DNA of 64,000 nt, taken from IMG/VR virus record IMGVR_UViG_3300017971_000224, positions 40,104 through 104,103 of that record; one strand, 5' to 3'. The notes under the pieces are model-generated. The model worked only from the letters and a program-made list of their open reading frames with translations. It searched no databases and was not told where the DNA came from. The stretch comes from a virus. A program made the position numbers and the translations under genes. This document shows positions 27,378 to 51,986 of this stretch, one piece after another; positions within the stretch are counted from its first letter, which is position 1; every line of letters starts with the position of its first letter.

Positions 27378-27442
27378 ATCATCCCTCCTTGTGCTGATTT
27401 AATCGTTATAGTATCACAATAAGTAATCAGTACCAGGAGTAA

Positions 27443-27515: not shown

Positions 27516-27595
27516 GAAAGAAGTGGTGATAGCCGCCCACATCACTATCACCCGCACAAGCCCCAACCGAACCAAATGCTTGCACATCCCTGTAA

Positions 27596-27860: not shown

Positions 27861-27861
27861 T

Positions 27862-28845
27862 TTACGCACCTGCTGAGCACAGAGACACATAAGGGTAGCC
27901 TTGCCGTTCCTTATACAGAATTTGCCCAGCCAGTTGTTGGTTGGCTACAGTCGCCACACTCATCTTGGGCAGTCTGCTGTCGGCTGCACCTTCTGACAGC
28001 AGCGGCTGTTGTGTCACGTGTTCGATCGTTTTTTCGCTCAGCAGTTTGACCTGCGCATTGGCGTTTTTCAGTGCGCGGTGAATACCAGCCAGCGATTTGA
28101 CCTCCACGCTCATGGGCACAAAGAATTTTGACGCTTGCCTGTGCCGCTTTTGATACTGAATTGCGAGTGAGCCGTAGCAGACTCTTATCAGTGGTTCCCA
28201 CACACGTTCCCAGAACGCCATGTTTGGAGCGCGTTCGACACCAACCACGTTTTCTCCCAGCAAGATGATGGCACCAATTTGTTTTGGCACCAACTCAAAC
28301 TCAGCTACGAACTCATCCAGCTGCTTTTCAAAGTGCTTCAAGAAGTAAGTGAGGTGGCCACCAGTATGTGGCACTCCACTTTCTTTGTTCAGACTTCTGA
28401 TGTGCGGCCAGATCTTGTCATAACCTTGTCTGTGTCTCATACTGAGAGCATGAGATCGTATTGATGCTGGCAATACCAACATGGTGATCGCTTTCTGGTC
28501 TCTGATGTAACCACCTTGGCTGTCCTCGATGCACATGGCTGTCTCGATGGACTTGCGGCCGTTTGCTTTGACCAAAAACGCGCTTGGCACAGCGTGGTCT
28601 TGTGCACGTTCTCTTGTCACCCAACCAGCACCTGTCGGTACGATGCTTGGTCGTGTGCTGTCTGTATTGCGCACTTGAACCGTACCATAGTTCGATGTTT
28701 CCACATGGAAGTCTGGTGGTGCGAAGTCGTCATCTTGCGCGTCGCCCTCGTCGATGAGCGGGATGACAGACATGTGGCCCACGGTTTGGGTTCTGCCACG
28801 TCCCATTCCTCTGAGGATTTCTTCGACTGTGAGGTTGCGTGTCAT
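27862..28845 (-). CDS. ARPP-1 (DUF6569)-like protein
   Basis: 327 residues. Features fit the ARG-and-rhodanese-associated family: a beta-rich start (MSVIPLID), a glycine-rich block (IVPTGAGWVTRERAQDHAVP), CIEDSQGG, an LPASIRSHA segment, and near the end KQIGAIILLGENVVGVERAP followed by WERVWEPLI. Molecular function is unknown. It overlaps the TROVE-like gene (28842) by ATGA, so the two are translationally coupled. Confidence 0.72.
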   Translation of the reverse strand: MTRNLTVEEILRGMGRGRTQTVGHMSVIPLIDEGDAQDDDFAPPDFHVETSNYGTVQVRNTDSTRPSIVPTGAGWVTRERAQDHAVPSAFLVKANGRKSIETAMCIEDSQGGYIRDQKAITMLVLPASIRSHALSMRHRQGYDKIWPHIRSLNKESGVPHTGGHLTYFLKHFEKQLDEFVAEFELVPKQIGAIILLGENVVGVERAPNMAFWERVWEPLIRVCYGSLAIQYQKRHRQASKFFVPMSVEVKSLAGIHRALKNANAQVKLLSEKTIEHVTQQPLLSEGAADSRLPKMSVATVANQQLAGQILYKERQGYPYVSLCSAGA

Positions 28846-30455: not shown

Positions 30456-30618
30456 AGCATCACCTCTCCCGTGGAGTTCTCCATCAAATTGTTTGTGGAG
30501 GAAAGGAAAGATCTAGCGGTAATTACGGAAGCTGGGTCTTTGACATAAACTATTTGTCTGAACCAGCATCACAGTTCCCGCTAAAAGAAATGGTTGAGTC
30601 AATTAGAGCATCACGTTT

Positions 30619-30692
30619 TCTAAGTGACTGGACTTGAACCAGCTACCTACGGTTTTCAGGACCGTTGCTCTTTCCAACTGAGCTACACTAAA
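30619..30692 (-). tRNA. degenerate tRNA, anticodon TGA, short variable arm
   Basis: Acceptor TTTAGTG/CACTTAG with a T-T mismatch, D-arm GCTC/GAGC, stem ACGGT, loop CCTGAAA with C33, variable region AGGTA, A discriminator. Nominally Ser(TCA), but not the class II shape of the other serine tRNAs. Upstream lies a repeated leader (see repeat at 30693). Confidence 0.6.
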
Positions 30693-30757
30693 GTGACCCT
30701 CAAGTTCTCAACCAAAACAAGGCGTTTAAAGCGAGGGAAGTAGGACATCACGATTGA

Positions 30758-30830
30758 GTGAAAGAGAAGGATTTGAACCTTCAACCTTCGGCTCTGCATG
30801 CCGATGCTCGACCACTCGAGCTGTCTTCCT
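30758..30830 (-). tRNA. tRNA-Cys (GCA)
   Basis: Stem TCGGC, loop ATGCAGA, T-arm GAAGG-TTCAAAT-CCTTC. Acceptor AGGAAGA pairs at six of seven positions and the discriminator is C, so it may be degenerate. Confidence 0.78.
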
Positions 30831-30859
30831 AAAGTGACCTCCAAGTTCTCGCTAAAAAA

Positions 30860-30868
30860 TATATACCA
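30860..30868 (-). promoter_or_regulatory. TGGTATATA box upstream of tRNA-Cys
   Basis: Exact copy of the shared 9-mer, 29 bp before the tRNA-Cys 5' end and reading leftward. Confidence 0.55.
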
Positions 30869-30939
30869 CAGGTGCTCGAACTTTTCGCAAGTTTTTTTCT
30901 TATTTTTTCACTTTTTCTTCCATAATATATTGGGTGGAA

Positions 30940-31013
30940 TGCCCCCGGTGGGATTTGAACCCAACGTTGCCGGATTGAAAGCCCGGTGTCCTACCCGTTT
31001 GAACGACGGGGGC
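30940..31013 (-). tRNA. tRNA-Glu (TTC)
   Basis: Acceptor GCCCCCG pairs fully, loop CTTTCAA, A discriminator, no encoded CCA. Confidence 0.93.
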
Positions 31014-37874: not shown

Positions 37875-38234
37875 CTAGAACAGGTCGTAGAGCAGGCCGT
37901 GGACGTAACCGTAGGGCTCGCAGTTGTAGCGCTCTGCGATGTACCGCCAGATGATGTCCTGCGACACGCCACGCGGCTCGGTGTCGCCAGCCCCAAGGTC
38001 GCTGTTGCCCGGCTTGCGGCGGGCGGTCTGGATGACGTAGAACGCGGCCTCCACGGCCGTGGTCAGCTCGTTGCCCGCCGCGAACTCCTCGTCCAGCAGA
38101 CGCAGCGCCTTGCACGCGGCCTTGCTCAGCCGGTGTGCTGCGAGGCCAGCACCCTTCATGTGGGTGTAGAGCTGCCAGTCATCGGCCTTCATCTTCATGA
38201 TCTTCTCTTCGTGCTGCTGTCGGATCTTGTTCAT
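37875..38234 (-). CDS. hypothetical helical protein
   Basis: 119 residues, AGGAGA ribosome site. Helix-rich, with AFYVIQTARRKPG and IAERYNCEPYGYVHGLL. Unknown function. Confidence 0.72.
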   Translation of the reverse strand: MNKIRQQHEEKIMKMKADDWQLYTHMKGAGLAAHRLSKAACKALRLLDEEFAAGNELTTAVEAAFYVIQTARRKPGNSDLGAGDTEPRGVSQDIIWRYIAERYNCEPYGYVHGLLYDLF

Positions 38235-38308
38235 GGTGTTTCTCCTAAAACTTTGGTGGTTTTTTCGTGCCCTTTAAGGGGGCGGCGGTTGTCCACCGCC
38301 CCCAGGTT

Positions 38309-40738
38309 TTACTTCAACATCTCTCGGATGATGCCCAGCGCCACGTCCGTCTCGTTGACCACGGACACACCGTCCACGACCTCACCGAACACCGCGCGCT
38401 TGGCCTCGATCATGCTGGCCAGGTACGTGTCGATCGAACCCATCATGTCCAGGTACTCGACGAACACCGGCGCGGTCTGGCCGATCCTGTGCAGCCTGTC
38501 CTCGGCCTGCGCCAGGTCAGCGGGGCGCCAGGTGCGCTCGACGAACAGCGCGTTCTGGCAGCGGTCCTGGAGGCCGTCAGTGCCGGTGCCAGCGGCCATG
38601 ATGCTGAGCACTGCCACTCGAGCCTGGCCAGTCCTGAAGGTGTCCACGGCAGCCTGGCGCTGGTCGCTGGTGTCGCCACCGAGGATGCTCACGACCTCGT
38701 GCCCGGCCTCGCGCAGTCCCTTGGCCATGGCGGTCAGCACGCTGCGATGGTGGGCGAAGATCACAAGCTGCTCGTCCTCGCGGCTGGCCAAGAAGTCAGC
38801 GGCGTGGGCCACAGCCTGCTCGGTCTTGGCCTCAGCAGCCAGGCGTCGCAGTGTGGTCAGGCGGGCGATGGCCTCGGCACGCTGGGCTTTGGCCAGCTTG
38901 TCACCACCTTGTGCAGCGGCCCAGGACAGGAAGTCGCTGGCAGCCTGGCTGTACTCACGGCGGTCAGCGGCCTTGACCTCGATGTTGGTGCAGGTCACGG
39001 TCTTGGCCGGCAGGTCCTCGAGCACCTCGGACTTGCGCCTGCGGACCATGTAGTGACCGATCAGCTGGTCGTGGAGGCGATCGGCATTGCTCACGCCCGT
39101 GAAGTCCCAGCCCCAGCGCCCACGGTGCCCGGCGCAGAACTCGATCCCGAAGTTGAAGAAGGACTTCCACACCACGGGGTCGCAGATGTTCAGCTGGTGC
39201 CAGAGCTCTTTCGGGCGGTTCAACATGGGAGTGCCGGTGAGCAGCATGCGCTTGGTGACGGTCTTGGCGATGGCGTTGCACGCCTTGCTCCGTGCGCTCT
39301 TGCTGTTCATGACATAGTGGCTCTCGTCGAGCACGAGGGTGGAGAAGCCCGCGGCGCACAACACGTCTTGGTGGCGGCGCAGCAGGTCGTAGTTGATGAC
39401 CACGACGTCGGCAGCCTTGCAATTTTCGGTAGTCATACTGTCGCTTTTGTTGGTTTTGCGGCCCTCGACCACCTCGAAGATCTTGTTGCCGTCGACAACG
39501 GCGATCTTGTGGGTGACGCCGTTGTTGAGCCAGGTGTTGACCTGGCGCGCCCAGTTGAGTTTGACGTTGGCCGGGACCACGATGAGCGCCGGGAGGCGGC
39601 TTGCGTCGCGGCTGAGGTACGCCAGGGCCTGCACGGTCTTGCCAAGGCCCATGTCGTCGGCCACGATGGCCCCGAACTTCTCGCCCTGCCGCTCCAGGAA
39701 CCGGACGCCGGCACTCTGGAAGGGGTAGAGCCGGCCACCGGGCAGCTCGATGGCCTCGTCAGCCTCGACGTTGGTGGCCCGTGCCAGGCGCTTGGCGTCG
39801 GCCTCGCGCTCCTCGCGCCCTTCGAGCTCAGGGGCCCACCGCACGTCCTCGCCGTACATGTCCTTGATGATGGCCACGGCCTCGTCCCAGCTCGGGCGAG
39901 TGACCCACCACGCCTTGGTCTGGGGGTCGAAGCGGCGATGGCCGCGGGGCAGGGCCTTGATGCGGGCCACCAGCGTGGGGTTGTACGGCGCCTTGATGCC
40001 CAGCTCGCTGCCGCGCACCTTGGTCAGACAGGTGGGCTCGTTGTTCTCGGGCTTGGCCTTGGGCGTGGCCTCGGTGGTCGCAGGCGCCTGCTCGGTCTGC
40101 TCGACCAGCTCACGGGCCTCGCGGCTGAAGGTGGCCTTGGGGAAGTTCTCAGCGATCATGGCGAAGACCTGCTTGGCGATGGCTGGCTTGGTCGCGAACT
40201 CGTTGCGCTTCTCGGCCCGGTTGAAGAACCGGGTGGGGATCGCCCGGAACTTGTCGAGCAGCTCGGGGCAGTAGCTGGTCTTGACGGCGAGGCGCTTGCC
40301 GTACTTGCCTGCGTCCACGACGCTGACGGCGGCCTTGCGCGCGCCCTGGTCATGACCCTTGATGCGAAGGTTGGCACCGGCGATGGCCGCGCTGTTCCGG
40401 AGGCCGAGGGCCACAAGGGCGTCGCAAGCGGCTGTGGCCTGCTCAGGGGCGAGACCCTGGCACAGGGCCTGGAGGATGGCGTTGCCCGCCTTGTTCAGGC
40501 CGGCGTCGAGGGAGATGGTGAGACCGGCTCGGGCACAGGCCTCGTCAAAGGCCACGGGGTCAGCCGCGCCGTTGACCTGGTCGAGGACGTAGCGGTAGGT
40601 CTGGGCGCACCACGGCCCCATCCCGCGCTCGGCGCTCTCGGGCACGAAGAGCGGCTCACCACACACGACGCAGTTGCCCAGCTGGCGGCGCTCCAGCTCC
40701 ACGTTCACGCTGTTGTTGTCCTTGGTGGTCTTACACAT
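38309..40738 (-). CDS. SNF2-family helicase (SMARCAL1-like)
   Basis: 809 residues. N-terminal CVVCGEPL/CAQTYRYV zinc module, a HARP-like segment (RRFDPQTKAWWVTRP), then SF2 motifs: DDMGLGKTVQ (I), VVPANVKLNW (Ia), LDESHYV (II), LTGTPMLN (III), and the C-terminal lobe ending AEDRLHRIGQ (VI). Such annealing helicases act at replication forks; a phage copy fits the repair module. The 859-residue frame on the other strand is a GC-composition shadow. Confidence 0.92.
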   Translation of the reverse strand: MCKTTKDNNSVNVELERRQLGNCVVCGEPLFVPESAERGMGPWCAQTYRYVLDQVNGAADPVAFDEACARAGLTISLDAGLNKAGNAILQALCQGLAPEQATAACDALVALGLRNSAAIAGANLRIKGHDQGARKAAVSVVDAGKYGKRLAVKTSYCPELLDKFRAIPTRFFNRAEKRNEFATKPAIAKQVFAMIAENFPKATFSREARELVEQTEQAPATTEATPKAKPENNEPTCLTKVRGSELGIKAPYNPTLVARIKALPRGHRRFDPQTKAWWVTRPSWDEAVAIIKDMYGEDVRWAPELEGREEREADAKRLARATNVEADEAIELPGGRLYPFQSAGVRFLERQGEKFGAIVADDMGLGKTVQALAYLSRDASRLPALIVVPANVKLNWARQVNTWLNNGVTHKIAVVDGNKIFEVVEGRKTNKSDSMTTENCKAADVVVINYDLLRRHQDVLCAAGFSTLVLDESHYVMNSKSARSKACNAIAKTVTKRMLLTGTPMLNRPKELWHQLNICDPVVWKSFFNFGIEFCAGHRGRWGWDFTGVSNADRLHDQLIGHYMVRRRKSEVLEDLPAKTVTCTNIEVKAADRREYSQAASDFLSWAAAQGGDKLAKAQRAEAIARLTTLRRLAAEAKTEQAVAHAADFLASREDEQLVIFAHHRSVLTAMAKGLREAGHEVVSILGGDTSDQRQAAVDTFRTGQARVAVLSIMAAGTGTDGLQDRCQNALFVERTWRPADLAQAEDRLHRIGQTAPVFVEYLDMMGSIDTYLASMIEAKRAVFGEVVDGVSVVNETDVALGIIREMLK

Positions 40739-40996
40739 GATGTTGCCCTCGTTGGTTTGAGTTCTCGACGTGATGTCATCGTCTCAAAAAATGCTGATTT
40801 AATCAAACTTTATTTTCTTTATTTTACAACAACAAGTTTTTATTGAATTTATTGGAAATCAAGATGAGTACTGCATTGAGACGATCTTCATTGGCAGCCA
40901 CATCTCGAGCTATGCCAGCCATACAGTAGGCTATATTAGCCACGAACCAGGGCTTTGAAATTATTAGTGTTTTTAGCTTTATGCTAGGCTAGGAGA
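40739..40996. other. AT-rich promoter region with 13-bp GGCTA palindrome
   Basis: No gene. The AT-rich segment resembles the region at 43320-43380 (AAATAAAGAAAA, then TTGAT-AAAT-AGC). GGCTATATTAGCC (40929-40941) is a perfect 13-bp palindrome. Confidence 0.55.
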
Positions 40997-41299
40997 TCAG
41001 GCAGGAACGTGGACCCAGATGAAGCCGTGGCAGTGGCGGCAGCCGTACACGTACATGTCGCCGTCCAGGGCCAGGACCTCGACACCGGTGCTCTCTGCGT
41101 GGCAGCGGGCGCAGCTCACGTCGCACACGAAGCGGTGCAGCACGCGCACTTTCTCATCGGTGTCCGGGCGCCGCACCCAGTCCGGGCGCTGCTGGGGGTT
41201 GACGAGCAGCACGCCCCGGCCCTCGGGCAGGTCCTCGAGCACCTCGCAGAACGAACCCAGTGCGTCTCCAGGCATCTTGCTTTTCCAATAGGTATCCAT
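40997..41299 (-). CDS. zinc-ribbon protein
   Basis: 100 residues. CARCHAESTG and CRHCHGFI cysteine pairs in the C-terminal half; N-terminal half unknown. Confidence 0.72.
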   Translation of the reverse strand: MDTYWKSKMPGDALGSFCEVLEDLPEGRGVLLVNPQQRPDWVRRPDTDEKVRVLHRFVCDVSCARCHAESTGVEVLALDGDMYVYGCRHCHGFIWVHVPA

Positions 41300-41343
41300 C
41301 GTTCTGACCTCCGTTTGCCCAGCACAGGGCAGCCTGCTAAGCC

Positions 41344-41814
41344 TCAGCTACAGTCTGGGCACAAGTGCCGTTTGACTTCTCGCACTGCGCCGTCTTGTTG
41401 TTGCATCATCAATACTGGTATGCAGTCTGTTCTCCATTTCCCGCAGTTCCAGCAGCACTTGAGCCCGTGGTATCGGATGATCGACAGATAAAGAATGCCC
41501 GCAGCTCGCCACGGGTCATTGCCCAGCGGGTGTTGTTGTAGATCGGGGTCTGCTGCTTCGATCTCCACTTGCTCTTGAGCCACTACCCATCCAGCGCCAA
41601 GTGCCACGGGCAGCCCTTTGTAGTCGCCGGCCACCTGCTTGCACACTTCCCAGCACCTGTTGAGTGTGGGCAGCCGCTCGTACCACACCGGGTGCTTGTC
41701 TTCGAGCTCTTGAGCGGTGAGGAGGGCACACTCGGCACAGCACGCACGCGCACTTGTCAGCCCGTCATAGTCGTGTTGCTCTATTTCGTTGCCACAGATT
41801 GGACAGCGCTTCAT
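41344..41814 (-). CDS. Cys-rich hypothetical protein with two zinc knuckles
   Basis: 156 residues. An N-terminal ribbon (CPICGNEI, CCAEC) and a C-terminal Cys cluster (CCWNCGKWRTDC, CPDCS). Unknown function. Confidence 0.72.
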   Translation of the reverse strand: MKRCPICGNEIEQHDYDGLTSARACCAECALLTAQELEDKHPVWYERLPTLNRCWEVCKQVAGDYKGLPVALGAGWVVAQEQVEIEAADPDLQQHPLGNDPWRAAGILYLSIIRYHGLKCCWNCGKWRTDCIPVLMMQQQDGAVREVKRHLCPDCS

Positions 41815-42005
41815 GGTTGATCCTCCTCGGTCAGGGGTGGGTGCAGGTGACAGTCCTCACCATGCACCGGGCACGTGGTGTGGAACCTGGCCTGCTCGGC
41901 GCCGCACACCTGGCACACCCAGCGCCCCACGTCATCGAGGCGCATCCCGCGCAGGCCTCGGGGATCGTCGCACGTGCAGTTCCAGCAGTAGCCATTGGCA
42001 GTCAT
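41811..42005 (-). CDS. small Cys-rich protein
   Basis: 64 residues from ATG 42005. Clusters CWNCTCDD and CQVCGAEQ, then CPVHGEDC; likely zinc or Fe-S binding. Overlaps the previous start by ATGA. Confidence 0.7.
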   Translation of the reverse strand: MTANGYCWNCTCDDPRGLRGMRLDDVGRWVCQVCGAEQARFHTTCPVHGEDCHLHPPLTEEDQP

Positions 42006-42190
42006 CGGTTCTGCCCCCAGACCTCGGGCAGGAACCCGCCCTTGCACAGCCAGCCGTGCAGCGCGTCGAGGTGGTTGACCAGTTCGATCACCTCGTAGTC
42101 GTAGCACCCGCCCTTCGAGTCGCAGCCGTCACGCTCGGCGATGTCCACACAGATCTGCAGGATCTCTTTGAGACAGGCGTTGGGGTCCAT
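42002..42190 (-). CDS. hypothetical protein
   Basis: 62 residues from ATG 42190 with AGGACA. Helical; CGGCYD-like Cys motif (DGCDSKGGCYDYE). Confidence 0.68.
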   Translation of the reverse strand: MDPNACLKEILQICVDIAERDGCDSKGGCYDYEVIELVNHLDALHGWLCKGGFLPEVWGQNR

Positions 42191-42209
42191 CACTTGTCCT
42201 TTCTTGTTG

Positions 42210-42416
42210 TCATGACGCCACCACTCTTTGCACCGACCGGACACCAGCGTAGAAAAACGTGGTGCCGCTTGGTCTGCGCACGTGGACCTTCACAGTGTTC
42301 TCACCGTAGTCCTCGACGCGCAGCACATAGTCGATGTTCTCAGGCTTGCTGCCATCGCCCCACACCACACGGTCACCGGGCACGAGGTCAACGGTCTTTT
42401 TCTCGATGGTCTCCAT
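42210..42416 (-). CDS. hypothetical beta-barrel-like protein
   Basis: 68 residues after GGGAGAG. DLVPGDRVVWGD and VKVHVRRPSG suggest a small SH3/OB-like barrel. Unknown. Confidence 0.68.
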   Translation of the reverse strand: METIEKKTVDLVPGDRVVWGDGSKPENIDYVLRVEDYGENTVKVHVRRPSGTTFFYAGVRSVQRVVAS

Positions 42417-42424
42417 GTTCTCTC

Positions 42425-42444
42425 CCTAGCCCAGCGATGGGCTA
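42425..42444 (-). repeat. TAGCCC...GGGCTA palindrome
   Basis: TAGCCC-N6-GGGCTA; its right arm contains the stop codon of the gene at 42442. One of the dispersed family. Confidence 0.6.
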
Positions 42445-42672
42445 GTACAGTATCACTCCCATGCTCAGCTCTTCGCAGTGCCGGGGCGCGTCCTCCAGCT
42501 CCAGGCCCAGGCGACCAGCGGCCCAGCCCACCTCGACCATGACATCCTCGCCGCAGGCCAATGCCGGGCAGGGCTCAGCCATCCCCCGTCTGCTGTACTC
42601 TGGCAGGACCTCCACCTTGATGTTGAGCTTGTGGAGCTCGGTGGCGATCTTCATTGCCTGGTACAGGGTCAT
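42442..42672 (-). CDS. hypothetical protein, paralogue of 45150
   Basis: 76 residues. Shares MTL-QA-KI at the N-terminus, a YS-R-M motif, EVGWA-G-LG and a G-V-LY ending with the protein at 45150. Both lie in the same block; probable duplication. Confidence 0.72.
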   Translation of the reverse strand: MTLYQAMKIATELHKLNIKVEVLPEYSRRGMAEPCPALACGEDVMVEVGWAAGRLGLELEDAPRHCEELSMGVILY

Positions 42673-42705
42673 GCTGAGTCTCCCTCGTTGTAGCCCATCA
42701 CTGGG

Positions 42706-43083
42706 CTAGTAGTAGTCGTCGGGATCGGGCGCCTGGTCCCAGGCGCACTCCATCAGCTCATCCAGCTCCACGGCACAGACCTCGCCGTCGGCCCACTTCA
42801 CCACCACGATGTCGACGTGCAGCGCGCGGTACTCGCCGGGCTTGCCGTAGACGGACGAGAGCTTGATCATGGTGTCCTGGTCCATGTCCAGGATCTCGTG
42901 GGTTTCGCACTCGACGTCGTACACCTCGAAGTCTCCACCCTCTTCGGGGTGGCAGTCCTCGGGTGGCCCCCAGATCTTGGCGGGGATCACGGGTGTGGCG
43001 TAGGCCTCGAAGCGCAGGGTGCGCTCACCATGCCGGGGGCCAGTGACGATCTCGTGGTGGTACTCGAAAAAGATGGTGCTCAT
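42706..43083 (-). CDS. hypothetical acidic protein
   Basis: 125 residues, strongly acidic, HHEIVTGPRHGERTLRF near the N-terminus and DPDDYY at the end. Its TAG stop forms part of the TAGCCC...GGGCTA palindrome at 42690. Unknown function. Confidence 0.72.
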   Translation of the reverse strand: MSTIFFEYHHEIVTGPRHGERTLRFEAYATPVIPAKIWGPPEDCHPEEGGDFEVYDVECETHEILDMDQDTMIKLSSVYGKPGEYRALHVDIVVVKWADGEVCAVELDELMECAWDQAPDPDDYY

Positions 43084-43084
43084 G

Positions 43085-43300
43085 TCAGCTCTCCTCTCGC
43101 TGGATCCCGGTCAGGTTGCGCAGACGACGGACCTGTGCGACAGACACCAGGCCCAGCTGCTCGGCGACCTCTACCTCGCTCAGACTACAGTCGGACAGCA
43201 GCGCGTTGCGCAGGCGCTGGCGCTCGCGCTCCGCCAGGTACTGATCGGCGGCGCTGATCGCCTCGCGTGCTTTCTGCTGCCATCTTTCGTAGTCTGTCAT
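43085..43300 (-). CDS. small HTH protein
   Basis: 71 residues, LSEVEVAEQLGLVSVAQVRRLRNLTG as an HTH. Possible regulator. Confidence 0.68.
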   Translation of the reverse strand: MTDYERWQQKAREAISAADQYLAERERQRLRNALLSDCSLSEVEVAEQLGLVSVAQVRRLRNLTGIQREES

Positions 43301-43387
43301 TGATCGTCCTCCAGCTTTCCATTATGCACGAAACGCTTATTTCATCAACATTTCTTTTCTTTATTTCATAACGTGTTGATATCTAGC
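43301..43387 (-). promoter_or_regulatory. AT-rich promoter region
   Basis: Leftward TTGATG, 16-bp spacer, CATAAT with an A-tract upstream; similar to 40739-40850. Confidence 0.5.
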
Positions 43388-43861
43388 CTATTCCTCGGCT
43401 AATGCGTACAGTGCCCAACTGCCCCCGGGCGCCGTTACCAGACCGGTGCCAGCGCATCGATCACAGCCTGGACACGGATCGTCGCTCACGTCGCCAAACT
43501 CCCAGCGCACCACTCGTTTGCCGCGCACGATCTCGGCCACCTCGCGCCCATGGCAGTTGCACTCGCGCTGGGACTCCGGGAGCACAGCACAGCTCGCCAC
43601 GAGTCGGTACCGATACTCGCCCTCGCGGTACGCTGCTGGCCATTCGCAGCTGTAGTTGCCGTGTGCATACACCGTGCACGACAGGCCCCAGTAGTCGTTG
43701 CCAGTGAAATAGTCCAACACCCACGGCACGTAGTCCGGATCCACGTTGTCCCACACGCCCCAGGCGCAGGCCTCGAGGGCCTTGGGCGGGGCCTCGAATT
43801 CATAGCCCCCGGTGTCGATGCCGTAGCCTATCGTGAGGCTAAGCCGCTGTTCCTCGGTCAT
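43388..43861 (-). CDS. hypothetical Cys-rich protein
   Basis: 157 residues from ATG 43861 (GGAG). Cysteine clusters ECNCHG and CPGCDRCAGTG resemble a DnaJ-like zinc centre. Unknown. Confidence 0.72.
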   Translation of the reverse strand: MTEEQRLSLTIGYGIDTGGYEFEAPPKALEACAWGVWDNVDPDYVPWVLDYFTGNDYWGLSCTVYAHGNYSCEWPAAYREGEYRYRLVASCAVLPESQRECNCHGREVAEIVRGKRVVRWEFGDVSDDPCPGCDRCAGTGLVTAPGGSWALYALAEE

Positions 43862-44190
43862 TGTCGCATCTCCTTTCGCACGGGCAGGCTGAGTAGTTCC
43901 ACCACCGTCAGGGCCACGGAGTGCTCGAGTTCTGCCCACGGCAAGCCCTCTGACACGTTGTCTGGCCACATGGCAGCGATCATGGGCTCGCCCGTTTGAT
44001 AATCGGTGTAGTATTGGAACGGTATGAGCTCACCATTCATGGTGGCCATGCCAATGATCATCAGCTGTGGTTCGTCGCCCGGCTCAGGCCGGGAGCAGTG
44101 CCAGTGCACGATGACGCCTCGCACTTCACCCTTGTGCTGCCCGCGCTTCACGGTGTGGAAATACAGGTCAATGGCGTCTGAGCTCAGCAT
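43858..44190 (-). CDS. hypothetical protein
   Basis: 110 residues after AAGGGAG. Beta-rich, contains MIIGMATMNGELIPFQYY. Unknown function; overlaps the next gene by ATGA. Confidence 0.72.
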   Translation of the reverse strand: MLSSDAIDLYFHTVKRGQHKGEVRGVIVHWHCSRPEPGDEPQLMIIGMATMNGELIPFQYYTDYQTGEPMIAAMWPDNVSEGLPWAELEHSVALTVVELLSLPVRKEMRQ

Positions 44191-44274
44191 GGCTTCTCCC
44201 TTGGCTGTTGGTGAGAAGACGCGGGGCCCTGGTACTTTCTGACAGCAAACATCAAAAAAAATCAGCCTTTCTTT

Positions 44275-44841
44275 CTACCTCAGACCGTAAGTGGTCATTG
44301 TCGTAAAAGCGCTCAGAAGTTCTTCAAGCGTGCACGTGGTTCTGTCGGGTGGCCGCAGTGCTGAAAAGATCGTGTACCAGTCACGCCACCACCACGTGAT
44401 GTCACGATAGCGCAGAGCCAGGTAGCAGCCGTTGGGCTCAGGGCGCAGAGCACGGCACACCAGCGGCCTGCGCCTCCACGACAGCACGCAGCCCCGGGCG
44501 CCGAGCATGCTGCATTGCCCCAGGATATGGCCTGTGCACGGCCCGTGGTACGGTAGGTCCTCGAACAACTCGTCGGTGGTTCGTGGTCGGACAAAGTACC
44601 GGCGGCGCGATCCTTCGGTCGGACCTCGCACCCAGTCCAGGGCCCAGCGGCCAGAGGCCAGGGCCTGCATCACGAGCTCAACACTGTGATCGAAGTCCGC
44701 GGGGTGCGCTGCACCGGGCTCGGTATGGCAACAGCGCCCGCGGCACACTTGGCACAGGACCGTTGGCCTGTACACGGCTATGTCAGCCCCGGCCACGGCT
44801 AATGCCCACAACACGGGTAGTCGATGCACCCGCAGCTGCAA
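44275..44841 (-). CDS. YkgJ-like cysteine-cluster protein
   Basis: Up to 188 residues; the ATG overlaps 44799 and a GTG later may be the real start. CQVCRGRCCHTEPG plus CSMLGARGCVLSWRRRPLVCRALRP match the YkgJ/Fe-S-like pattern (C..C..CC, then C....RP..C). Function unknown. Confidence 0.68.
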   Translation of the reverse strand: MQLRVHRLPVLWALAVAGADIAVYRPTVLCQVCRGRCCHTEPGAAHPADFDHSVELVMQALASGRWALDWVRGPTEGSRRRYFVRPRTTDELFEDLPYHGPCTGHILGQCSMLGARGCVLSWRRRPLVCRALRPEPNGCYLALRYRDITWWWRDWYTIFSALRPPDRTTCTLEELLSAFTTMTTYGLR

Positions 44842-45095
44842 CCGATCCGCGACCCGTCCTGGAGGTAGACCCCGTAGCGATCGAAGTGTGAGGCCACGGC
44901 GCCGGGCGAACGATCGCCACGCTCGTACGCCGTGCGGCCGTCATATCGTCCGTGGTTCACCTCGTGATCCGACTTCTCGCAGTCGACGCACGCAACGCGC
45001 CCCCCGCCGTACCACTTGGCGCGCGTCCCCCGCCGCAGACGCCAGCCACAGTGCACGCAGGTCCCCGCGTACTTCAACGTGATGACTCGTGCCAT
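44799..45095 (-). CDS. zinc-ribbon protein
   Basis: 98 residues from ATG 45095 (TTG upstream less likely). CVHCGW and CVDCEKSD knuckles, then CSCGCIDYPCCGH at the end. Unknown role. Confidence 0.7.
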   Translation of the reverse strand: MARVITLKYAGTCVHCGWRLRRGTRAKWYGGGRVACVDCEKSDHEVNHGRYDGRTAYERGDRSPGAVASHFDRYGVYLQDGSRIGCSCGCIDYPCCGH

Positions 45096-45149
45096 GTCCA
45101 GACCCAACCCTTCTAGCCCCTCACGGGGCTGCTGTAGCCCTTGTCAGGG

Positions 45150-45386
45150 CTAGTAGAGGACGACGCCCGTGCCCAGTGCATCGCTCCTCGACGGTACCTC
45201 GCGCAGCGTCATTCCCAGCACGCCACACGCCCAGCCCACCTCAGTCCAGCAGTCGACGTCGCAGTACAGGGCGACACACGTCTTGCCGTACATGCACCGC
45301 CCACTGTACTCTTCCCTGACCTCGACGCCATCAACCCCAGCGTCCTCGAGCAGTCTCACGATTTTGTGTGCCTGGTCCAGTGTCAT
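45150..45386 (-). CDS. hypothetical protein, paralogue of 42442
   Basis: 78 residues with AAAGGA. Related to 42442 along its length. Its stop codon again lies in a TAGCCC...GGGCTA palindrome. Confidence 0.72.
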   Translation of the reverse strand: MTLDQAHKIVRLLEDAGVDGVEVREEYSGRCMYGKTCVALYCDVDCWTEVGWACGVLGMTLREVPSRSDALGTGVVLY

Positions 45387-45422
45387 GTCGCGTTCCTTTC
45401 TCTGGTTTGAGGTGTTCGGGGC

Positions 45423-45638
45423 TCAGGCGTCCCACGTCTTGACGCAGGTGCCGTCGATGTACGCCGTGATGTGCAGCACACCGTCGAGGTCCACGCCCAT
45501 TGCGTCCCGGAGCTCGGCGTGCAGCGCCATCTCCGTACCGGCCTCTGCCAGCAGCCGGCCGTCTGACCACGCGAGGTGCTGGCCCCTGCCCTTGTACGTG
45601 GAGTGCGTTGTGTAGATGCCAGTTGTGCCTGTTGCCAT
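45423..45638 (-). CDS. hypothetical protein
   Basis: 71 residues after AAAGGAG. Contains TTHSTYKGRG and AYIDGTCVKTWDA, no known family. Its promoter is at 45690. Confidence 0.7.
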   Translation of the reverse strand: MATGTTGIYTTHSTYKGRGQHLAWSDGRLLAEAGTEMALHAELRDAMGVDLDGVLHITAYIDGTCVKTWDA

Positions 45639-45689
45639 GGTCGATCTCCTTTAGCCCTCAACGAGGCTGGTTTAGCTTACCAAACAGCT

Positions 45690-45717
45690 ATTCTAAAGCC
45701 TTATTCAACAATGTCAA
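45690..45717 (-). promoter_or_regulatory. sigma70-like promoter
   Basis: Leftward TTGACA, 16-bp spacer, TAGAAT, 52 bp upstream of the gene at 45423. Confidence 0.7.
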
Positions 45718-45767
45718 CAAAAAAAGTGTAAATAAAACCACAACAAGTTCCTATCACCGTTTATCCC

Positions 45768-45788
45768 GTAGTATACAAAGTATACTAC
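45768..45788. promoter_or_regulatory. 21-bp operator-like palindrome
   Basis: GTAGTATAC-AAA-GTATACTAC; related smaller palindromes occur at ~45924 (AGTACAG/CTGTACT) and ~46246 (TAGTAC/GTACTA) in the same region. Confidence 0.55.
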
Positions 45789-46628
45789 ATCGGATATCTC
45801 ACCTCTAATCTAGCCCACCGCACGGCTAAAAACGCGCCCGCCCGCAGCCAGCCACCAGCCCCGCGCTGTTCCCCCACCAAATAGTTCCAACTACCACGAC
45901 TATCACTGCTGTACTCCCCACTACCCACTACCGTAGTACAGTACCCTGTACTGATATGTACTCGTTTTGAGGGTTTCGTTGTTTCCCTTTATATATTCTT
46001 TGTGCATTATGCGGTGTGCGGCTTTTCACGTGTGTTGTGTTGTGTGTCGGTCGTGTGGGTGTACGTCAGTGGCCACAGGCTCACAGTTTACAAGTTTACA
46101 CAGTGGTTGTGGGGTGGGTGTGGGACGTGGTTAAACACCCCAAAACACCTGCCGCCACACCTCATCGAGGCCGTCAACCCCCAATTTTGACGTTTTTTCT
46201 GTCGCCGTTGAACCTCCTGTGTCGAGAGACACCACCCCGTTTCTATAGTACGTAGTACTACGGGAAAACTTTGGTGACTTTCACAGCCCCGCATAGGGCT
46301 GTAGCACCTGCACCTCAGGCTAAAAGTGTTTTAGCCGCAGCTAAGGCTAACTCAGCCTTGCACAGGTTTAGCCACACGTTATGCTAGTGTCTCGTTTTGA
46401 CGCTTTCACACCTCCGGCTTAGGCACCAGCCCATCACTAGGCTAACGCCGAGTTAGTGTATCACTTTGGTACAGGGTTGATCCCGGGCTCAGCCCCGATA
46501 AAGCCCTACGTCATCAGCCACACCTTAGGCTAAAAGCTCCTTGACTTTGACGGTTTTGTACCTTGCCTTTAGAGACACCTCCAAATATTTCGACCTCGGT
46601 TTTCAGCCTCGCTCTTGCACCTGGCCCC
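45789..46628. other. non-coding region with scattered GCTA palindromes
   Basis: No convincing gene. Several TAGCC/GGCTA elements (for example TTAGCC...GGCTAA near 46330) and TTTTGACG motifs. Confidence 0.55.
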
Positions 46629-47126
46629 CTACGGCATGCACACCCAGACCGGGGTGCTGCTGGTGCCCGCCACCCGCGTGACCGACGAGAACACCTCGCA
46701 CAGCTCAGCCTCGATCTCTGACGGTCTCAGGTCCGCCTTTCGAGGGCTCTGTGGGTAGTTGCACACCACGGATCCGTCCCACGTGCAGGCGTCGAACAGC
46801 TCACGGATCGTGATGCGCAGCATGGTGCGCGAGCTCAGTACGTTGAGCACGTTGCTGGCATACACCAGGGTGTATGTGCGGCTGAGCGCTCGGGTGTCGT
46901 GCACGCCTGGCCTGACGTTCTCCCCGAAGTCGTAGGCTGTGACGTCCAGGCCCCTGGCCCTTAGCATCTGCGCGTGTTGCGCCGTGGTCCCGGATCCGAA
47001 GTCTAGGATTGTGTCCTCGGGCCTGGCGATCTCCAGCACCATGCGTGGGACGATGGCCTTGGCACCCACGGCACCTGCGCCCCGGCTTGTGGCGTTAGCC
47101 ACCTTGACATCAGCGGTCGAATACAT
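46629..47126 (-). CDS. SAM-dependent methyltransferase
   Basis: 165 residues, strong GGAGGTG. Class I MTase motif I (ILDFGSGTTAQHAQML) and motif II-like TAYDFGEN; the final motifs are weak. Substrate unknown. Confidence 0.75.
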   Translation of the reverse strand: MYSTADVKVANATSRGAGAVGAKAIVPRMVLEIARPEDTILDFGSGTTAQHAQMLRARGLDVTAYDFGENVRPGVHDTRALSRTYTLVYASNVLNVLSSRTMLRITIRELFDACTWDGSVVCNYPQSPRKADLRPSEIEAELCEVFSSVTRVAGTSSTPVWVCMP

Positions 47127-47165
47127 GGAAACACCTCCACATCTTTTGACGGTTTTTGACCGGCC

Positions 47166-47393
47166 TTAGCGCACCACGCCACAGGCGCACCCCGTGCACC
47201 CACACAGGGCGCGCCGCACACGGCGCACACGGCGGCGCATGGCCCCGTCCCCGTTGTCTGCCAGGTGGCAAACGTAGGTCCACACGTCACACCCCAACGC
47301 CTGTGCGTGTGAGGCCACGGTCTGTGGCACGCGCACCCGGGTCTCGGTGCCGTGGAATGAATTCGACAGGGTCACGGTGGTGGTCTTGCTCAT
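47166..47393 (-). CDS. hypothetical small protein with Cys-rich tail
   Basis: 75 residues after AGAGGAG. Beta-rich start (TTTVTLSNSFHG) and a basic, Cys-rich end (RRALCGCTGCACG). Confidence 0.62.
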   Translation of the reverse strand: MSKTTTVTLSNSFHGTETRVRVPQTVASHAQALGCDVWTYVCHLADNGDGAMRRRVRRVRRALCGCTGCACGVVR

Positions 47394-47484
47394 GTTCGCG
47401 CTCCTCTTTTTGACGGTCCCCAGCCCGCCGTTAGGGGTGGAGCCGGGCTGTTCTGTGGCACAACCCGGTGGAAGCCTAGGGGCA

Positions 47485-47497
47485 GGCTAATCTAGCC
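47485..47497 (-). repeat. GGCTA-ATC-TAGCC palindrome
   Basis: 13-bp perfect palindrome that contains the TAG stop of the gene at 47492. Same architecture as those at 40929 and 63436. Confidence 0.6.
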
Positions 47498-48013
47498 TAC
47501 GGCCTTGGTCAGCACCTCGGCACCCGCCCGCACCACGAGGTCCTCCACGCGCTCGACCTCCGCACTTTTGACGGATATGGACCCGCGCTTGTGCTGCGGC
47601 GGGAGCTTTGACGTCACCTCGCGATCGAAGCGCTCCATGGCATCGGTCACGCCCTCCTGCTCCAGGACAGCGTTGCGCGCCTTGGTCCCCTGCTTGCCGA
47701 TTTTGATGGCCTCAGGGATCGCCTCTGCGAGGTAGCGCAGGGCGTCGTCACGCGTGATCCCCATGCGACGGATGAGGAGCGCACACACGATCGTGAAGGG
47801 GATCGACGTGGTGGGCTTGGCGTCGGGCACATCACGGCCCTTGGCGAACTCCCCGCACACGTGCACGTGAAAGTCAAAGGAGTGCGCGCCCGTTTCGAGG
47901 GCATCGCGTGCGCCGTTTACCGTGTCTTTGCTCCCCCCATCTGTGAGGATCTTCGCCAGGGCGACGATCTGAGTGGAGGTGAGGTCCGCGATCTTGGTGG
48001 TGTTCTTGGCCAT
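47492..48013 (-). CDS. hypothetical protein
   Basis: 173 residues from ATG 48013; GGAG upstream with spacing 10. Helical: LTSTQIVALAKILTDGG and RYLAEAIPEAIKIG. Unknown. Confidence 0.72.
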   Translation of the reverse strand: MAKNTTKIADLTSTQIVALAKILTDGGSKDTVNGARDALETGAHSFDFHVHVCGEFAKGRDVPDAKPTTSIPFTIVCALLIRRMGITRDDALRYLAEAIPEAIKIGKQGTKARNAVLEQEGVTDAMERFDREVTSKLPPQHKRGSISVKSAEVERVEDLVVRAGAEVLTKAVG

Positions 48014-48104
48014 GGTACGCGCTCCCGTTTTGATGGGTGCCCATCTCCCCGTTAGGGCATGGTGAGGGGTTGTTCTTGGGCACAACCCCACAAAGCCCGG
48101 GACT

Positions 48105-48911
48105 CTACTCGCTCGCGCTCAGCGCGGCGCTCAGCTTCGCCTTGCGTGCACCATGCGCAGGGAAGCCCACGATCCCCTTGCGCTGGCGTTGACAGAGCTT
48201 GCACGTGGCACACGTGATATCATCGCGCACCGCAGCAGGACACACGCCCACGGTGCGGCCCGCAGGGGTTTTGACGGGTTTGTCGGTGCCCATAGGGAGC
48301 ACGCAGACCACGGGCGCGATCTCAAGTTCGGCCAGTGCGTCCACTTCTGCCAGGTTATCCGCGCTCAGGTTTACCGTGAATCCGCTTTCATTCATTGCCT
48401 GGATCACGGCCCTATTGTGCGCCGCATTTTCCTTGCCCGTTTCTCCCAATACGTCGTGATGCGTATACGTGAACCCCCCGCGGTTTGCGCCCACGGAATT
48501 TGCCTGGCACAACATGGCAGCAGACTCTGCGCAGATGCGATCGGGGTTGTCTTGCTCGGGGCGCAGATCTCCTAGTTCATTGTGTCGCCAGATCGTGACG
48601 CTATCCGGATCCATCTCTGCCACGGATTGGCAGAAATTTGACCAATTTGAGACGCTGTTATAGGCGCTGGCGTCGACGCGGTCCCAATGAAATCTACAGT
48701 TTCCCCCCTCCCCGTAACAACCCCCCGATCCACGGAGCGGGCAGACGATCGGGCAAGTGGAACGGCTCGAACGGCTCACCGGGATCTCACCGGTTTTGAT
48801 ATTCTTTGAGACGTGGGTTAGTTGGTGCGTTGTCGGGCTCGCATTGCGTTTGGCGACGGTGAGAAGTGCGAGGAAAAGAGCGGCGATCGTGTTCTTGATC
48901 TCTGTCATCAT
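48105..48911 (-). CDS. Cys-rich phage protein (SSRSTCP...CPL...GCYGE type)
   Basis: 268 residues. N-terminal hydrophobic stretch, then SRSSRSTCPIVCPLRGSGG with CYGEGGNC, and CATCKLCQRQ near the C-terminus. The pattern recurs in phage proteins of unknown function; a metal cluster is likely. Confidence 0.68.
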   Translation of the reverse strand: MMTEIKNTIAALFLALLTVAKRNASPTTHQLTHVSKNIKTGEIPVSRSSRSTCPIVCPLRGSGGCYGEGGNCRFHWDRVDASAYNSVSNWSNFCQSVAEMDPDSVTIWRHNELGDLRPEQDNPDRICAESAAMLCQANSVGANRGGFTYTHHDVLGETGKENAAHNRAVIQAMNESGFTVNLSADNLAEVDALAELEIAPVVCVLPMGTDKPVKTPAGRTVGVCPAAVRDDITCATCKLCQRQRKGIVGFPAHGARKAKLSAALSASE

Positions 48912-48977
48912 GGCTTGATCCCTTCTGACGTCTTATGAAAACTTGGTGTGTTTTCTGCGCCCGTTTGCGTGTCTTGT

Positions 48978-49538
48978 TTAGAACGTTCCCCGGTAGTTTC
49001 CAGCGCCATCCCAGAACAAGCGCGATCCGTCGGGCGCGATCGTTCCCTCGTCGTCAAAGTGCCAACCGTCGACGCTGGCGATCGTTGCGGCAAGCTTGCC
49101 GATCGCGTTTTCTGTTTCGGTGTAGTGACATTGCGCGTAGTAGAGACGATCGCCCATGGTTTCGCACGTGCTGTCATCATATGGCACGTGGATCGGTGCG
49201 TGCGCCGCTTTCTCGTCGAGACGATCTGCCATTGTCCCGAAGATCGGCGCGATCGTCGCGTTGTCTTGCGTCGCCAGCGCTTCCTGAATTTGGCCACTAT
49301 GATCGCGCCGATCGGCGCGATCCTTGCGCTGGCGCGCTTCTGATTTGTACCATCGATCGTCTTTGTTGAGCTTGCGCGCGTGCTTCGGAGTGCGATCGAT
49401 CGCGTTCGGCGCCACGGACTCGAACAACTTGCGATCGCGCTTTGCTGCGTTGCGTGTTGCTGTTCTGCGCGTTGCGCGCTTGCGGTTCTTTGGTGCGCTT
49501 GTGGCCAGTGTTGCGAGTGTTGCGAGTGTTGCGAGCAT
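48978..49538 (-). CDS. hypothetical protein with short N-terminal repeats
   Basis: 186 residues from ATG 49538. Starts MLATLATLATLATS, encoded by near-identical 9-bp DNA repeats. Then a basic region (KNRKRATRRTATRN). Unknown; repeats may vary by slippage. Confidence 0.68.
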   Translation of the reverse strand: MLATLATLATLATSAPKNRKRATRRTATRNAAKRDRKLFESVAPNAIDRTPKHARKLNKDDRWYKSEARQRKDRADRRDHSGQIQEALATQDNATIAPIFGTMADRLDEKAAHAPIHVPYDDSTCETMGDRLYYAQCHYTETENAIGKLAATIASVDGWHFDDEGTIAPDGSRLFWDGAGNYRGTF

Positions 49539-49570
49539 CGTGTTTCCCTCGTGTTTCGTGGTTTCTCGTT

Positions 49571-49891
49571 TCAATCCAAGATCGGGCAATGGCAAATTGC
49601 GGTTCTGTCTTCGCGCTTTGCGGGTGCGCTGTTGAGTTCAACAAAGAGGCTTGCGTGATAGGCCTCAAGTTCGGTTTTGATGCGCTCGCACCTTGCCACG
49701 GCGATCGGGTAGAGACGATCGCAAGCTGCGAGCGTGCGCGCTTGGCACGCTTCGGGTGCCCAGTATGCATGCCAAGCGGCGATCGTTTCGGGTGCTACTT
49801 GTACTGTGTGCGCAAGTGGCAAGCGCTTGTGATTGGCGATCATGCTGGCGACGGCAAGAGCGGCGGAGATACAAAGCAAGATCGTGATCAT
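49571..49891 (-). CDS. hypothetical membrane or secreted protein
   Basis: 106 residues after GAGGG. N-terminal hydrophobic segment (ILLCISAALAVASMIA) and a helical remainder with Cys. Upstream hairpin at 49922. Confidence 0.68.
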   Translation of the reverse strand: MITILLCISAALAVASMIANHKRLPLAHTVQVAPETIAAWHAYWAPEACQARTLAACDRLYPIAVARCERIKTELEAYHASLFVELNSAPAKREDRTAICHCPILD

Positions 49892-49921
49892 GTGGTTTCC
49901 CTCGTGTTGATATCTCTTTAT

Positions 49922-49941
49922 ATCACGCTTTAGAGCGTGAT
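49922..49941. promoter_or_regulatory. palindrome ATCACGCT...AGCGTGAT
   Basis: Perfect 8-bp arms around 4 bp in the leader of the gene at 49571; an operator or hairpin. Confidence 0.5.
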
Positions 49942-50194
49942 TAGATATTTTTTTAATAACGTATTGATATCATTGAAATCTTAGCTCTTGTCTAGGCTAG
50001 TATTTCGTGTTGTGTGTGCATATGTCACATTAGCCTACATGCAAGCTAAGTTATTGAATTCATTGACTAAGCAATGTGATCTCATTACCCTATAACTTCA
50101 CATAAAAGACCTATAACTATCGGCACAACTTATTGTTATTATTATACAATCTCGACCATAGGCAAAAAAACGGTTTTCGATTGTGTTTTTCCAA

Positions 50195-50212
50195 TGTCCT
50201 ACATGTAGGACA
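50195..50212. promoter_or_regulatory. 18-bp perfect palindrome
   Basis: TGTCCTACATGTAGGACA; a second half-match (TTGTCCTACAT) lies at ~50263, with GATGTAG/CTACATC arms around 50232-50274. Operator-like. Confidence 0.55.
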
Positions 50213-50508
50213 AGGTATACAAATGGGGGTGGATGTAGTATGGCGGGCGCGCCCCTACTACCTTGTCCTACATCTAGTTTGTGGTGCTCGTTTCACTTGT
50301 TTTGGTATAATACTTGCTAGAAAAGTGAGACAATACCTACATTTGTTTACACACATAATTATATATAACTTATGCATAATTTATATATCATTGTACCTAT
50401 GGCACCATATATATATGTCGTGCTGAGAGCTCCTAGGATGCTCTCTAACGAACGAAAAAATCGGAGATATCAGCCTATGGATAGGCTTGCGATCGTCCAA
50501 TACAGAGG

Positions 50509-50530
50509 AAATGTGATCTAAATCACATTT
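50509..50530. promoter_or_regulatory. near-consensus CRP-type operator
   Basis: Arms AAATGTGAT and ATCACATTT around CTAA, 21 of 22 bases matching the ideal Escherichia coli CRP site. No gene follows within 1 kb on the right; the nearest leftward gene starts at 49891. Confidence 0.55.
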
Positions 50531-50670
50531 TAAAATATATCTTATCACTGCCTCAAAACGAGACGATCACTAGTGTGTCAAATTGCGACAGTGCATAGCT
50601 TATCGCTAGGCTACCCAAGCCGAGACCTAGGCTAGTCTAGCAAGTATCGTGCCAAGCAGTGATATTGAGA

Positions 50671-50920
50671 TAACAACTTACACATGAATACATATCAATA
50701 CATTTACATACATAAGAGCATATCTTCACACATATGGTTACAATTGAACACAAAAGAGCATAATTGCATACAAAAGCATACTTATACGCATAACTACGCA
50801 TATAAAACTACAATTACATACAATCTCTTACTTGTATCTACAATTGAACACAAAAACGCATAAATACATACAAAAGAACACATTGCAGCATATGAACACA
50901 CAATCGCGCACACACGCGCA
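50671..50920. repeat. 25 decameric units YA-N6-YA, exact 10-bp period
   Basis: In 25 consecutive 10-bp units position 10 is A, position 9 and position 1 are pyrimidines in every unit, and position 2 is A in 23. Flexible TA/CA steps recur once per helical turn. No coding frame. See findings. Confidence 0.85.
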
Positions 50921-51165
50921 CTTGTGGCGCATCTAACCTACACGTAGGCTAAAGTAGGATAACGCAAGGCTAAATAGCTTATCACTAGGCTAGCAATAAT
51001 CGTGCCATCATCTTAGCTTGGCGCGTGGCTAATTTTCACCGTATCTTATCATAGAAAACTGGCCAGATGTTATGTTGGCACGATTCTCGCAATGTTAGGT
51101 GCCGGAATATTTTGGGGTCATATTTTTGATGCCCTAGCCCACCCCCCGGCTACCACAGCCTACCG

Positions 51166-51275
51166 GTGAGCTAATCATAGACATCAGTGAGCTAATACAG
51201 TATTGAGAGCTAATCATAGACACCGGTGAGCTAATACCGTCATGAGTGAGCTAATTACAGACACCGGTGAGCTAA
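51166..51275. repeat. tandem ~20-bp repeats containing GAGCTAAT
   Basis: Six copies of GAGCTAAT at 51168, 51189, 51207, 51228, 51248, 51269 (spacing 18-21), alternating two unit types with a ~40-bp super-period. AT-rich flanks, no gene in 51276-51544. Confidence 0.7.
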
Positions 51276-51544
51276 TCCCAATCCCCTATGACCCACCAAT
51301 CCCACGGCATCCACCATAGTCACAGACCCCCCGGGCCCCACCACCAATTGCCAGCCCACACAGAACTCAACAGAACTAGTATCACGTCTGTAGAAAAAAA
51401 TATTAGAGTTGGCGGGCCGCGTCCAGTCCCGTCTATCAACGTACATCCGCCACCCGGCCCCCGTCACAGGGGCTGTGGGACTGGGCGCCCGGCGCTTACC
51501 ACGCCACGCCACTCACGTTCAACAACCTGTTCTGGGAACGTTAA

Positions 51545-51952
51545 CTAAGAAAGTAGGTCACTGCGTCCAAGGACCTCAACGTCGTACACCAATTGATAAA
51601 TGAATTCTCTATTTCTGGTACAGAACTGACTCCCAGCCAACATGCCCATAGACTTGATGAATGCGTTATACGTTTCTACCTCGGCAACAGCGTATAGATG
51701 TAGACGATTTGTTTCTACGCCCCACACACATTTATACAGTTCTTTGACCACGTCCCCAACCATTCTCATGGCTTGGTACACGGCGTCTACATCACCCAGT
51801 TCCAGGGCCTCAAGTATTGTAAATACAGTAATTGTTTCTAATCCTTTTTCTGCGAAGAAATGGCGTACTAGCCACACAGGCCATTCCCTACACGGAGTGG
51901 CGTCCTTCATTATGTCATCTATACTCCAGTGCCTAATCCTTTTGGTTTTCAT
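51545..51952 (-). CDS. hypothetical protein
   Basis: 135 residues from ATG 51952 (AGGTG). Helical, with EALELGDVDAVYQAMRMVGDVV. Unknown. Confidence 0.7.
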   Translation of the reverse strand: MKTKRIRHWSIDDIMKDATPCREWPVWLVRHFFAEKGLETITVFTILEALELGDVDAVYQAMRMVGDVVKELYKCVWGVETNRLHLYAVAEVETYNAFIKSMGMLAGSQFCTRNREFIYQLVYDVEVLGRSDLLS

Positions 51953-51986
51953 CTTTGGCACCTGACTTTTTATAATGGTTTTTTAT

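Follow-up and report, generated by a model that had tools for sequence, protein, structure and literature searches.

An unbroken 25-unit array of 10-bp repeats in a non-coding region of a large uncultured phage

A 25-unit decamer array in exact 10-bp register

The 25 decamers in constant phase found in a large uncultured phage are a genuine cis element whose arrangement is far from random. The array occupies positions 50679 to 50928 (forward strand) of the window, the whole 64-kb stretch of DNA that was analyzed, and has the consensus YAYAWNNNNN (mostly YACAW). Its core is YAYA, usually YACA, and repeats at intervals of 10.0 bp in 25/25 units, with zero indels over 250 bp. The original prediction placed the array at 50671 to 50920 and stated that every one of the 25 decamers cut in that frame begins with a pyrimidine and finishes with YA and that 23 have A at position 2. 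Our recount yielded the same numbers, and 50679 to 50928 was found to be the more natural register. In this register, positions 1, 2, and 3 were Y, A, and Y in 25/25 units each, position 4 was A in 22/25, and position 5 was W in 23/25; positions 6 to 10 carried 0.3 to 0.5 bit.

The periodicity was evaluated against the rest of the window and against permuted sequences, as had been proposed, and both comparisons upheld the pattern. The best 25-unit YA score was 25 at the array and, the array neighborhood aside, rarely exceeded 10 elsewhere in the window. The Fourier spectrum peaked at 10.0 bp (2.79) and was flat at 10.5 bp (0.21). Among 2,000 dinucleotide-preserving shuffles, the best fraction of units in phase had a mean of 0.52 and a maximum of 0.75, versus 1.0 observed (i.e., at most 75% of units compared with 100% in the array). 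A stricter motif, YAYWH-N5 repeated nine times, had 17 matches versus 0 in 100 window shuffles. The array sequence was identical across three assemblies of the same phage.

The period of 10 ruled out a coding origin. Simple tandem duplication was ruled out because Tandem Repeats Finder did not report the array and because the spacers stayed at background: identity between units at positions 5 to 10 was 0.27 to 0.43 at all lags from 10 to 150 bp, with 0.39 expected from column composition. Both exclusions had been part of the original prediction. Only the 4-bp core is constrained. One weak duplication was detected within the array, in which a 54-bp segment (50739 to 50792) recurs 100 bp away (50839 to 50892) with 80% identity, and 9/11 of the differences fall at positions 6 to 9 of the decamer. 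A literature search on YA periodicity found nothing, and we know of no other 25-unit 10-bp array.

Source genome and genomic context of the array

The window forms the final 64 kb of an IMG/VR virus record of 104 kb. It is also contained in a second record (G001; 142,861 bp), which matched it with 100% identity in the parts compared. G001 carries a 144-bp direct terminal repeat, from which we conclude that the genome is circularly complete at about 142.7 kb. Genes for a terminase, a Mu-type portal, a capsid E-family protein, DNA polymerase III alpha, a class II ribonucleotide reductase (RNR), RecA, a Dam methylase, and an HU-domain protein were identified. At least 23 tRNA genes lie at 19484 to 31013 of the window; five of them are tRNA-Ser genes, four of which are tightly clustered at 19909 to 20275. 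Genes for DNA polymerase, RNR, and terminase point to a large phage with a lytic life style, and Pfam scans of the phage genome found no integrase or partition family. Cultured phages are remote (best terminase match, about 32% identical), and no nucleotide homologues were found among them. The HU-type DNA-binding protein (4719 to 5267, forward strand; PF00216, E value of 4.2e-13; phrog_379) consists of a C-terminal HU domain preceded by a long N-terminal extension and is encoded directly after the DNA polymerase III alpha gene. It is a possible architectural partner of the array.

The array lies in the largest non-coding stretch of the phage, an intergenic region of 1.65 kb (49892 to 51544, delineated by ORF maps and composition) between leftward genes. 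The segment at 50 to 51 kb has a GC content of 37% between GC-richer flanks, the left one at 56 to 65%. Across positions 38000 to 50000, the GC content rises to 60 to 65%, whereas the replication and structural genes have about 40%. Roughly half of all CGATCG sites in the window fall within 48.5 to 49.8 kb, and the ORFs at 48908 to 49770 are Arg/Ser-rich and may be non-genes. The nearest convincing genes are 1.8 kb to the left and 0.6 kb to the right of the array. The left one (48105 to 48911, reverse strand) is an early phage gene of the DUF7227 family (PF23872; Pfam E value of 5.6e-69), which is related to phage GP88. The first gene to the right of the region on the ORF map (51545 to 51961, reverse strand) encodes a 138-amino-acid protein that matched no known family in family searches.

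Further iterons and repeats are present within 400 bp of the array. A composite repeat belonging to direct repeat families D3 and D9 occurs in two copies on the forward strand, one on each side of the array: the left copy, ATAGCTTATCGCTAGGCTA ... CTAGTCTAGCAAGTATCGTGCCA, at about 50595 to 50654 and the right copy, ATAGCTTATCACTAGGCTAGCAATAATCGTGCCA, at 50974 to 51007 (D3, 95%; D9, 87%). A second iteron set, consisting of six copies of GAGCTAAT, occupies 51166 to 51286 (forward strand), with starts at 51168, 51189, 51207, 51228, 51248, and 51269 and a spacing of 18 to 21 bp (about 20). These iterons, at 51168 to 51286, carry composite flanks (AGACAYCRGT). The region also contains an inverted repeat at 50199 to 50277 (repeat I1; 19-bp arms, 95% complementary, 41 nt apart) and, at 50509 to 50530, the CRP-consensus-like palindrome AAATGTGATCTAAATCACATTT, the only TGTGA-N6-TCACA in the window. 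The original prediction had likewise placed the array in the largest non-coding region, beside palindromes and a CRP-like site.

A candidate counterpart in a distant relative

Relatives were collected by terminase (52 to 59% identity) and provided about 600 kb of sequence, several of the records being fragments. No array with the same motif was detected in the terminase relatives at three or fewer mismatches over nine units; most relatives examined were without an array, and several of these were fragments. Beyond the window, the strongest period-10 value in a base-neutral period scan fell at the end of G012 (147.7 kb), in the non-coding DNA of a relative with about 50% protein identity. The 10-bp signal at this site exceeded all 200 shuffles at three array lengths (e.g., 6.76 versus a shuffle maximum of 4.41 for 10 units and 3.95 versus 2.19 for 18 units). 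On the reverse strand, the successive decamers read GTACC..., GCACA..., GTACC..., TCACA..., GTACC..., GCACA..., and GCACC..., i.e., YAC(A/C) every 10 bp. With a requirement of at least 7/8 YAC in 10-bp phase, this intergenic site was the only other place in the approximately 600 kb from relatives. Matches in another relative, G011, were rejected as chance, one being inside a methyltransferase-like ORF and the other weak.

Gene order also connects the two sites. The G012 genome from 24 to 0 kb parallels the window from 31 to 47 kb, and the synteny continues through GP88 (in G012) or DUF7227 (in the window) to the array, with the same strand relation. On this basis, the G012 site is at the equivalent map position in the same orientation and is regarded as a weaker counterpart of the window array. 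The G012 array is short (7 to 8 units) and partly a 20-bp duplication, and the surrounding region is also repeat-rich. The G012 contig joins through 19-bp repeats, and the circular join is supported by synteny. An Illumina-adapter-like sequence with an N run beside 9- and 19-bp repeats (L256:1556-1664) is likely an assembly artefact. G012 encodes an HU-domain homologue. The pattern was originally proposed to be sought in related phages; the comparison, which covered distant relatives, found that 1 of about 9 keeps a weaker version.

DUF7227/GP88 genes in the vicinity of arrays

DUF7227 and GP88 appear to form one superfamily, judging from a profile comparison (E value of 1.3e-4; probability of 53%). 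Members with conserved Cys residues were observed at 48105 to 48911 of the window, at L256:373-1305, and in L271, L286, and L289. In cultured phages, genes of this type are often located near genome ends, and their neighborhoods are repeat-rich. A structural model predicted an alpha/beta fold with TIM-barrel-like elements and Cys clusters, with no PDB match at an E value of ≤1e-3. A literature search on DUF7227/GP88 found nothing. Because array-bearing contigs often encode GP88/DUF7227, the protein was at first attractive as an array partner. We rejected it as a dedicated partner, given that 9 cultured-phage loci and 80 unbiased GP88 loci were without 10-bp arrays. Repeat enrichment near the GP88 gene was weak in both sets of loci, and the gene seems merely to share a repeat-rich neighborhood with the arrays.

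Phased arrays in other viral and bacterial sequences

A search of IMG/VR for at least 17 YA-N8 units returned 98 stretches, most of which were ordinary minisatellites or coding repeats; about 10 had truly variable spacers. Two groups were recognized among the variable-spacer arrays. The first, alternating CTAA-N6-TTAG, was observed in several unrelated phage contigs (L014, L029, L036, L045, L056, L070, and L220 to L223) in non-coding DNA, with up to 44 decamers. To our knowledge, such arrays have not been described before. Those in L014/L045, L029, L036, L056, and L070 resemble the phage array in their unbroken 10-bp phase, free spacers, and non-coding location but differ in their alternating palindromic 20-bp units, their motif, and the absence of GP88/DUF7227 in the records searched.

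The second group, YACAA-N5, occurs in some unrelated phages. Two such arrays (L122 and L164) occupy matching positions next to proteins that appear homologous on visual inspection. Another (L161) extends into the 5' end of a small gene that has a ribbon-helix-helix-like sequence (a weak match; E value of 0.085). In bacterial genomes, nearly all YACAA arrays were exact minisatellites; the one variable-spacer case (L505:37-110) is directly upstream of an ORF that, as we read its sequence, resembles a DnaB-type replicative helicase. The core common to the YACAA arrays partly reflects selection, as the search favored the YAYAW motif by design. As sequence patterns, the YACAA-N5 arrays are compatible with being sites at which small proteins bind DNA cooperatively near control regions. 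More speculatively, and with considerable doubt on our part, the 25-unit array of the window may belong to a recurrent and so far undescribed class of helically phased decamer arrays in phages (YACA/YACAA every 10.0 bp, with free spacers). On arrays of this class, an uninterrupted filament or wrap of protein and DNA would form at the control region of large phages, with no plasmid-type partition motor involved.

Interpretation of the array

The explanation that we tentatively favor, while granting that it may well be wrong, is a cis-acting protein-assembly site, i.e., an origin or a regulatory nucleoprotein scaffold, with protein binding, cooperativity, and an origin or segregation output as its presumed properties. 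Twenty-five identical-phase 4-bp sites, one per helical turn, would take up a putative small phage DNA-binding protein, whose copies would line up next to one another and coat or wrap some 250 bp. Contact between neighboring copies would fix the spacing at exactly 10 bp. Together with the GAGCTAAT iterons, the flanking repeats, and the AT-rich DNA, the array would most likely form a phage control region, that is, a replication origin, possibly with segregation or regulatory roles. By analogy, it may work like the decamer/undecamer direct repeats of plasmid parC or like origin iterons. Against this explanation, no RHH_1, ParA, or TubZ gene was found in the genome, most of the relatives examined (several of them fragments) are without the array, no skew turn coincides with it, and the G012 array is short.

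The closest analogue is the ParR/parC pair of type II partition systems (R1, pB171, and pSK41). ParR of pB171 binds 10-bp direct repeats and that of R1 binds 11-bp repeats (PMC9426499), and pSK41 ParR wraps DNA as a continuous superhelix with 12 dimers per turn and phosphate contacts at 10-bp repeats (PMC5016525). One ParR dimer is accommodated per ~10 bp in a wrapped superhelix (PMC9426499, PMC5016525). Like parC, with its head-to-tail direct repeats of 10 to 11 bp (20 bp in pSK41), the phage array consists of contiguous direct repeats in non-coding DNA, here at exactly 10 bp. It differs from R1 parC, which has about ten repeats close to parM/parR, in having 25 units of which only a 4-bp core is kept, and from parC plasmids generally in belonging to a large phage in which no partition gene was found. 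In the omega/parS (pSM19035) and ParG (type Ib) systems, many short sites are likewise bound cooperatively by small ribbon-helix-helix dimers, but omega sites are heptads rather than decamers, and both proteins need ParA, which was not found in the phage.

The region also resembles iteron origins (lambda O-type and plasmid Rep) in combining several iteron sets, AT-rich DNA, and inverted repeats within one non-coding region, and the GAGCTAAT set has the two-turn spacing usual for such origins. Unlike the phage array, origin iterons are normally 17 to 22 bp long with most bases conserved. An adjoining initiator or helicase gene was sought and not found; the neighbors of the array matched no initiator family, and the DNA polymerase gene is 46 kb away. 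GC skew, which is confounded by gene direction, changes sense near 19.5 and 62 kb of the window rather than at 50.7 kb, and it shows no clear turn at the G012 site. A skew-based origin call at the array was unsupported in either genome. Such a set of iterons resembles both origins and partition sites, but no origin is marked here by skew.

The original prediction had offered two interpretations, a segment evolved for wrapping or bending and an iteron array such as a centromere or origin. The iteron array fits best, in view of the fixed 10.0-bp register, the 4-bp core, the free spacers, the adjoining iterons, and the similar pattern in a relative; the pure bending idea has lost ground. As a rival, it holds that flexible TA/CA steps once per turn ease wrapping by HU, gyrase, or a similar protein without sequence-specific recognition. 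YA steps do concentrate at register positions 1 (25/25) and 3 (22/25) and are scarce in the rest of the array, the phage has its own HU-domain protein with a homologue in G012, and a period below 10.5 suits left-handed wrapping. We nevertheless consider bending unlikely. In a roll/twist model, the ratio of end-to-end to contour length was 0.982 at 10.5 bp/turn, compared with 0.991 ± 0.006 for shuffles (minimum, 0.943). Forcing 10.0 bp/turn gave 0.965 versus 0.991 (shuffle minimum, 0.966), i.e., DNA that is only slightly more bent. Selection for bending would not require an unbroken 10.0-bp register, and with an exact 10.0-bp period, the bend face would rotate through more than a full turn across the 250 bp. 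Both the A at position 4 and the W at position 5 exceed what YA steps need, and G012 has an HU gene yet only a short array. A protein array is favored over sequence-directed bending because the register never slips, predicted curvature is ordinary, spacers are free, and the period is 10.0 rather than 10.5 bp, as expected if neighboring protein copies set the spacing. The HU-domain protein as an architectural partner is kept as the main rival.

Transcription control, in which binding sites for a repressor or activator, aligned along one face of the helix, would govern the flanking leftward operon, seems rather improbable to us. The array sits between genes of a leftward block, close to the CRP-like palindrome, and the L161 array reaches the start of a small gene. 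Promoter-like matches were nevertheless at chance level (4 versus 5.6 expected), 25 contiguous sites far exceed usual operators, and the nearest convincing genes are 1.8 and 0.6 kb away.

The likeness to parC in repeat length and head-to-tail layout (PMC9426499) raises the possibility that the array serves the segregation system of a phage-plasmid as a genuine plasmid-type centromere (parC, tubC, or parS-like); with 12 ParR dimers per superhelical turn, 25 sites would correspond to about two turns (PMC5016525). We regard such a centromere as quite unlikely and did not classify the array as one, since no ParA, TubZ, or ribbon-helix-helix gene was detected. Searches of G001 and G012, each run with a positive control, found no ParA-type ATPase (AAA_31; control positive in 14/14 genomes), no TubZ (Tubulin family; control positive in 13/14 genomes), and no RHH_1 (ribbon-helix-helix ParR-type) match at an E value of ≤1, at which a divergent ribbon-helix-helix protein could be missed. 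The neighbors of the array matched no ribbon-helix-helix family. A search for ParM with StbA_N had no match in the phage, and its control likewise matched nowhere. The absence of integrase and partition families from the Pfam scans and the gene content suggestive of a lytic phage also weigh against a centromere.

A functionless, drifted minisatellite expansion, to which the 54-bp internal recurrence and the repeat-rich region in the relative could be attributed, is very improbable, as drift would erode core and spacers alike, whereas the core is intact in 25/25 units with spacers at background at all lags, and the same pattern occurs at the equivalent place in G012.

Implications for large uncultured phages

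If a protein does bind once per turn over 250 bp, as the protein-assembly explanation holds, the array would offer a clean and very long series of sites, one per turn, on which to test how contacts between proteins determine the helical repeat and wrapping of DNA. The control region of a large phage lineage without a cultured member would be marked as well, and the YACA-N6 phase would provide a sequence signature for such regions in metagenomic phages, whose origins are usually unknown.
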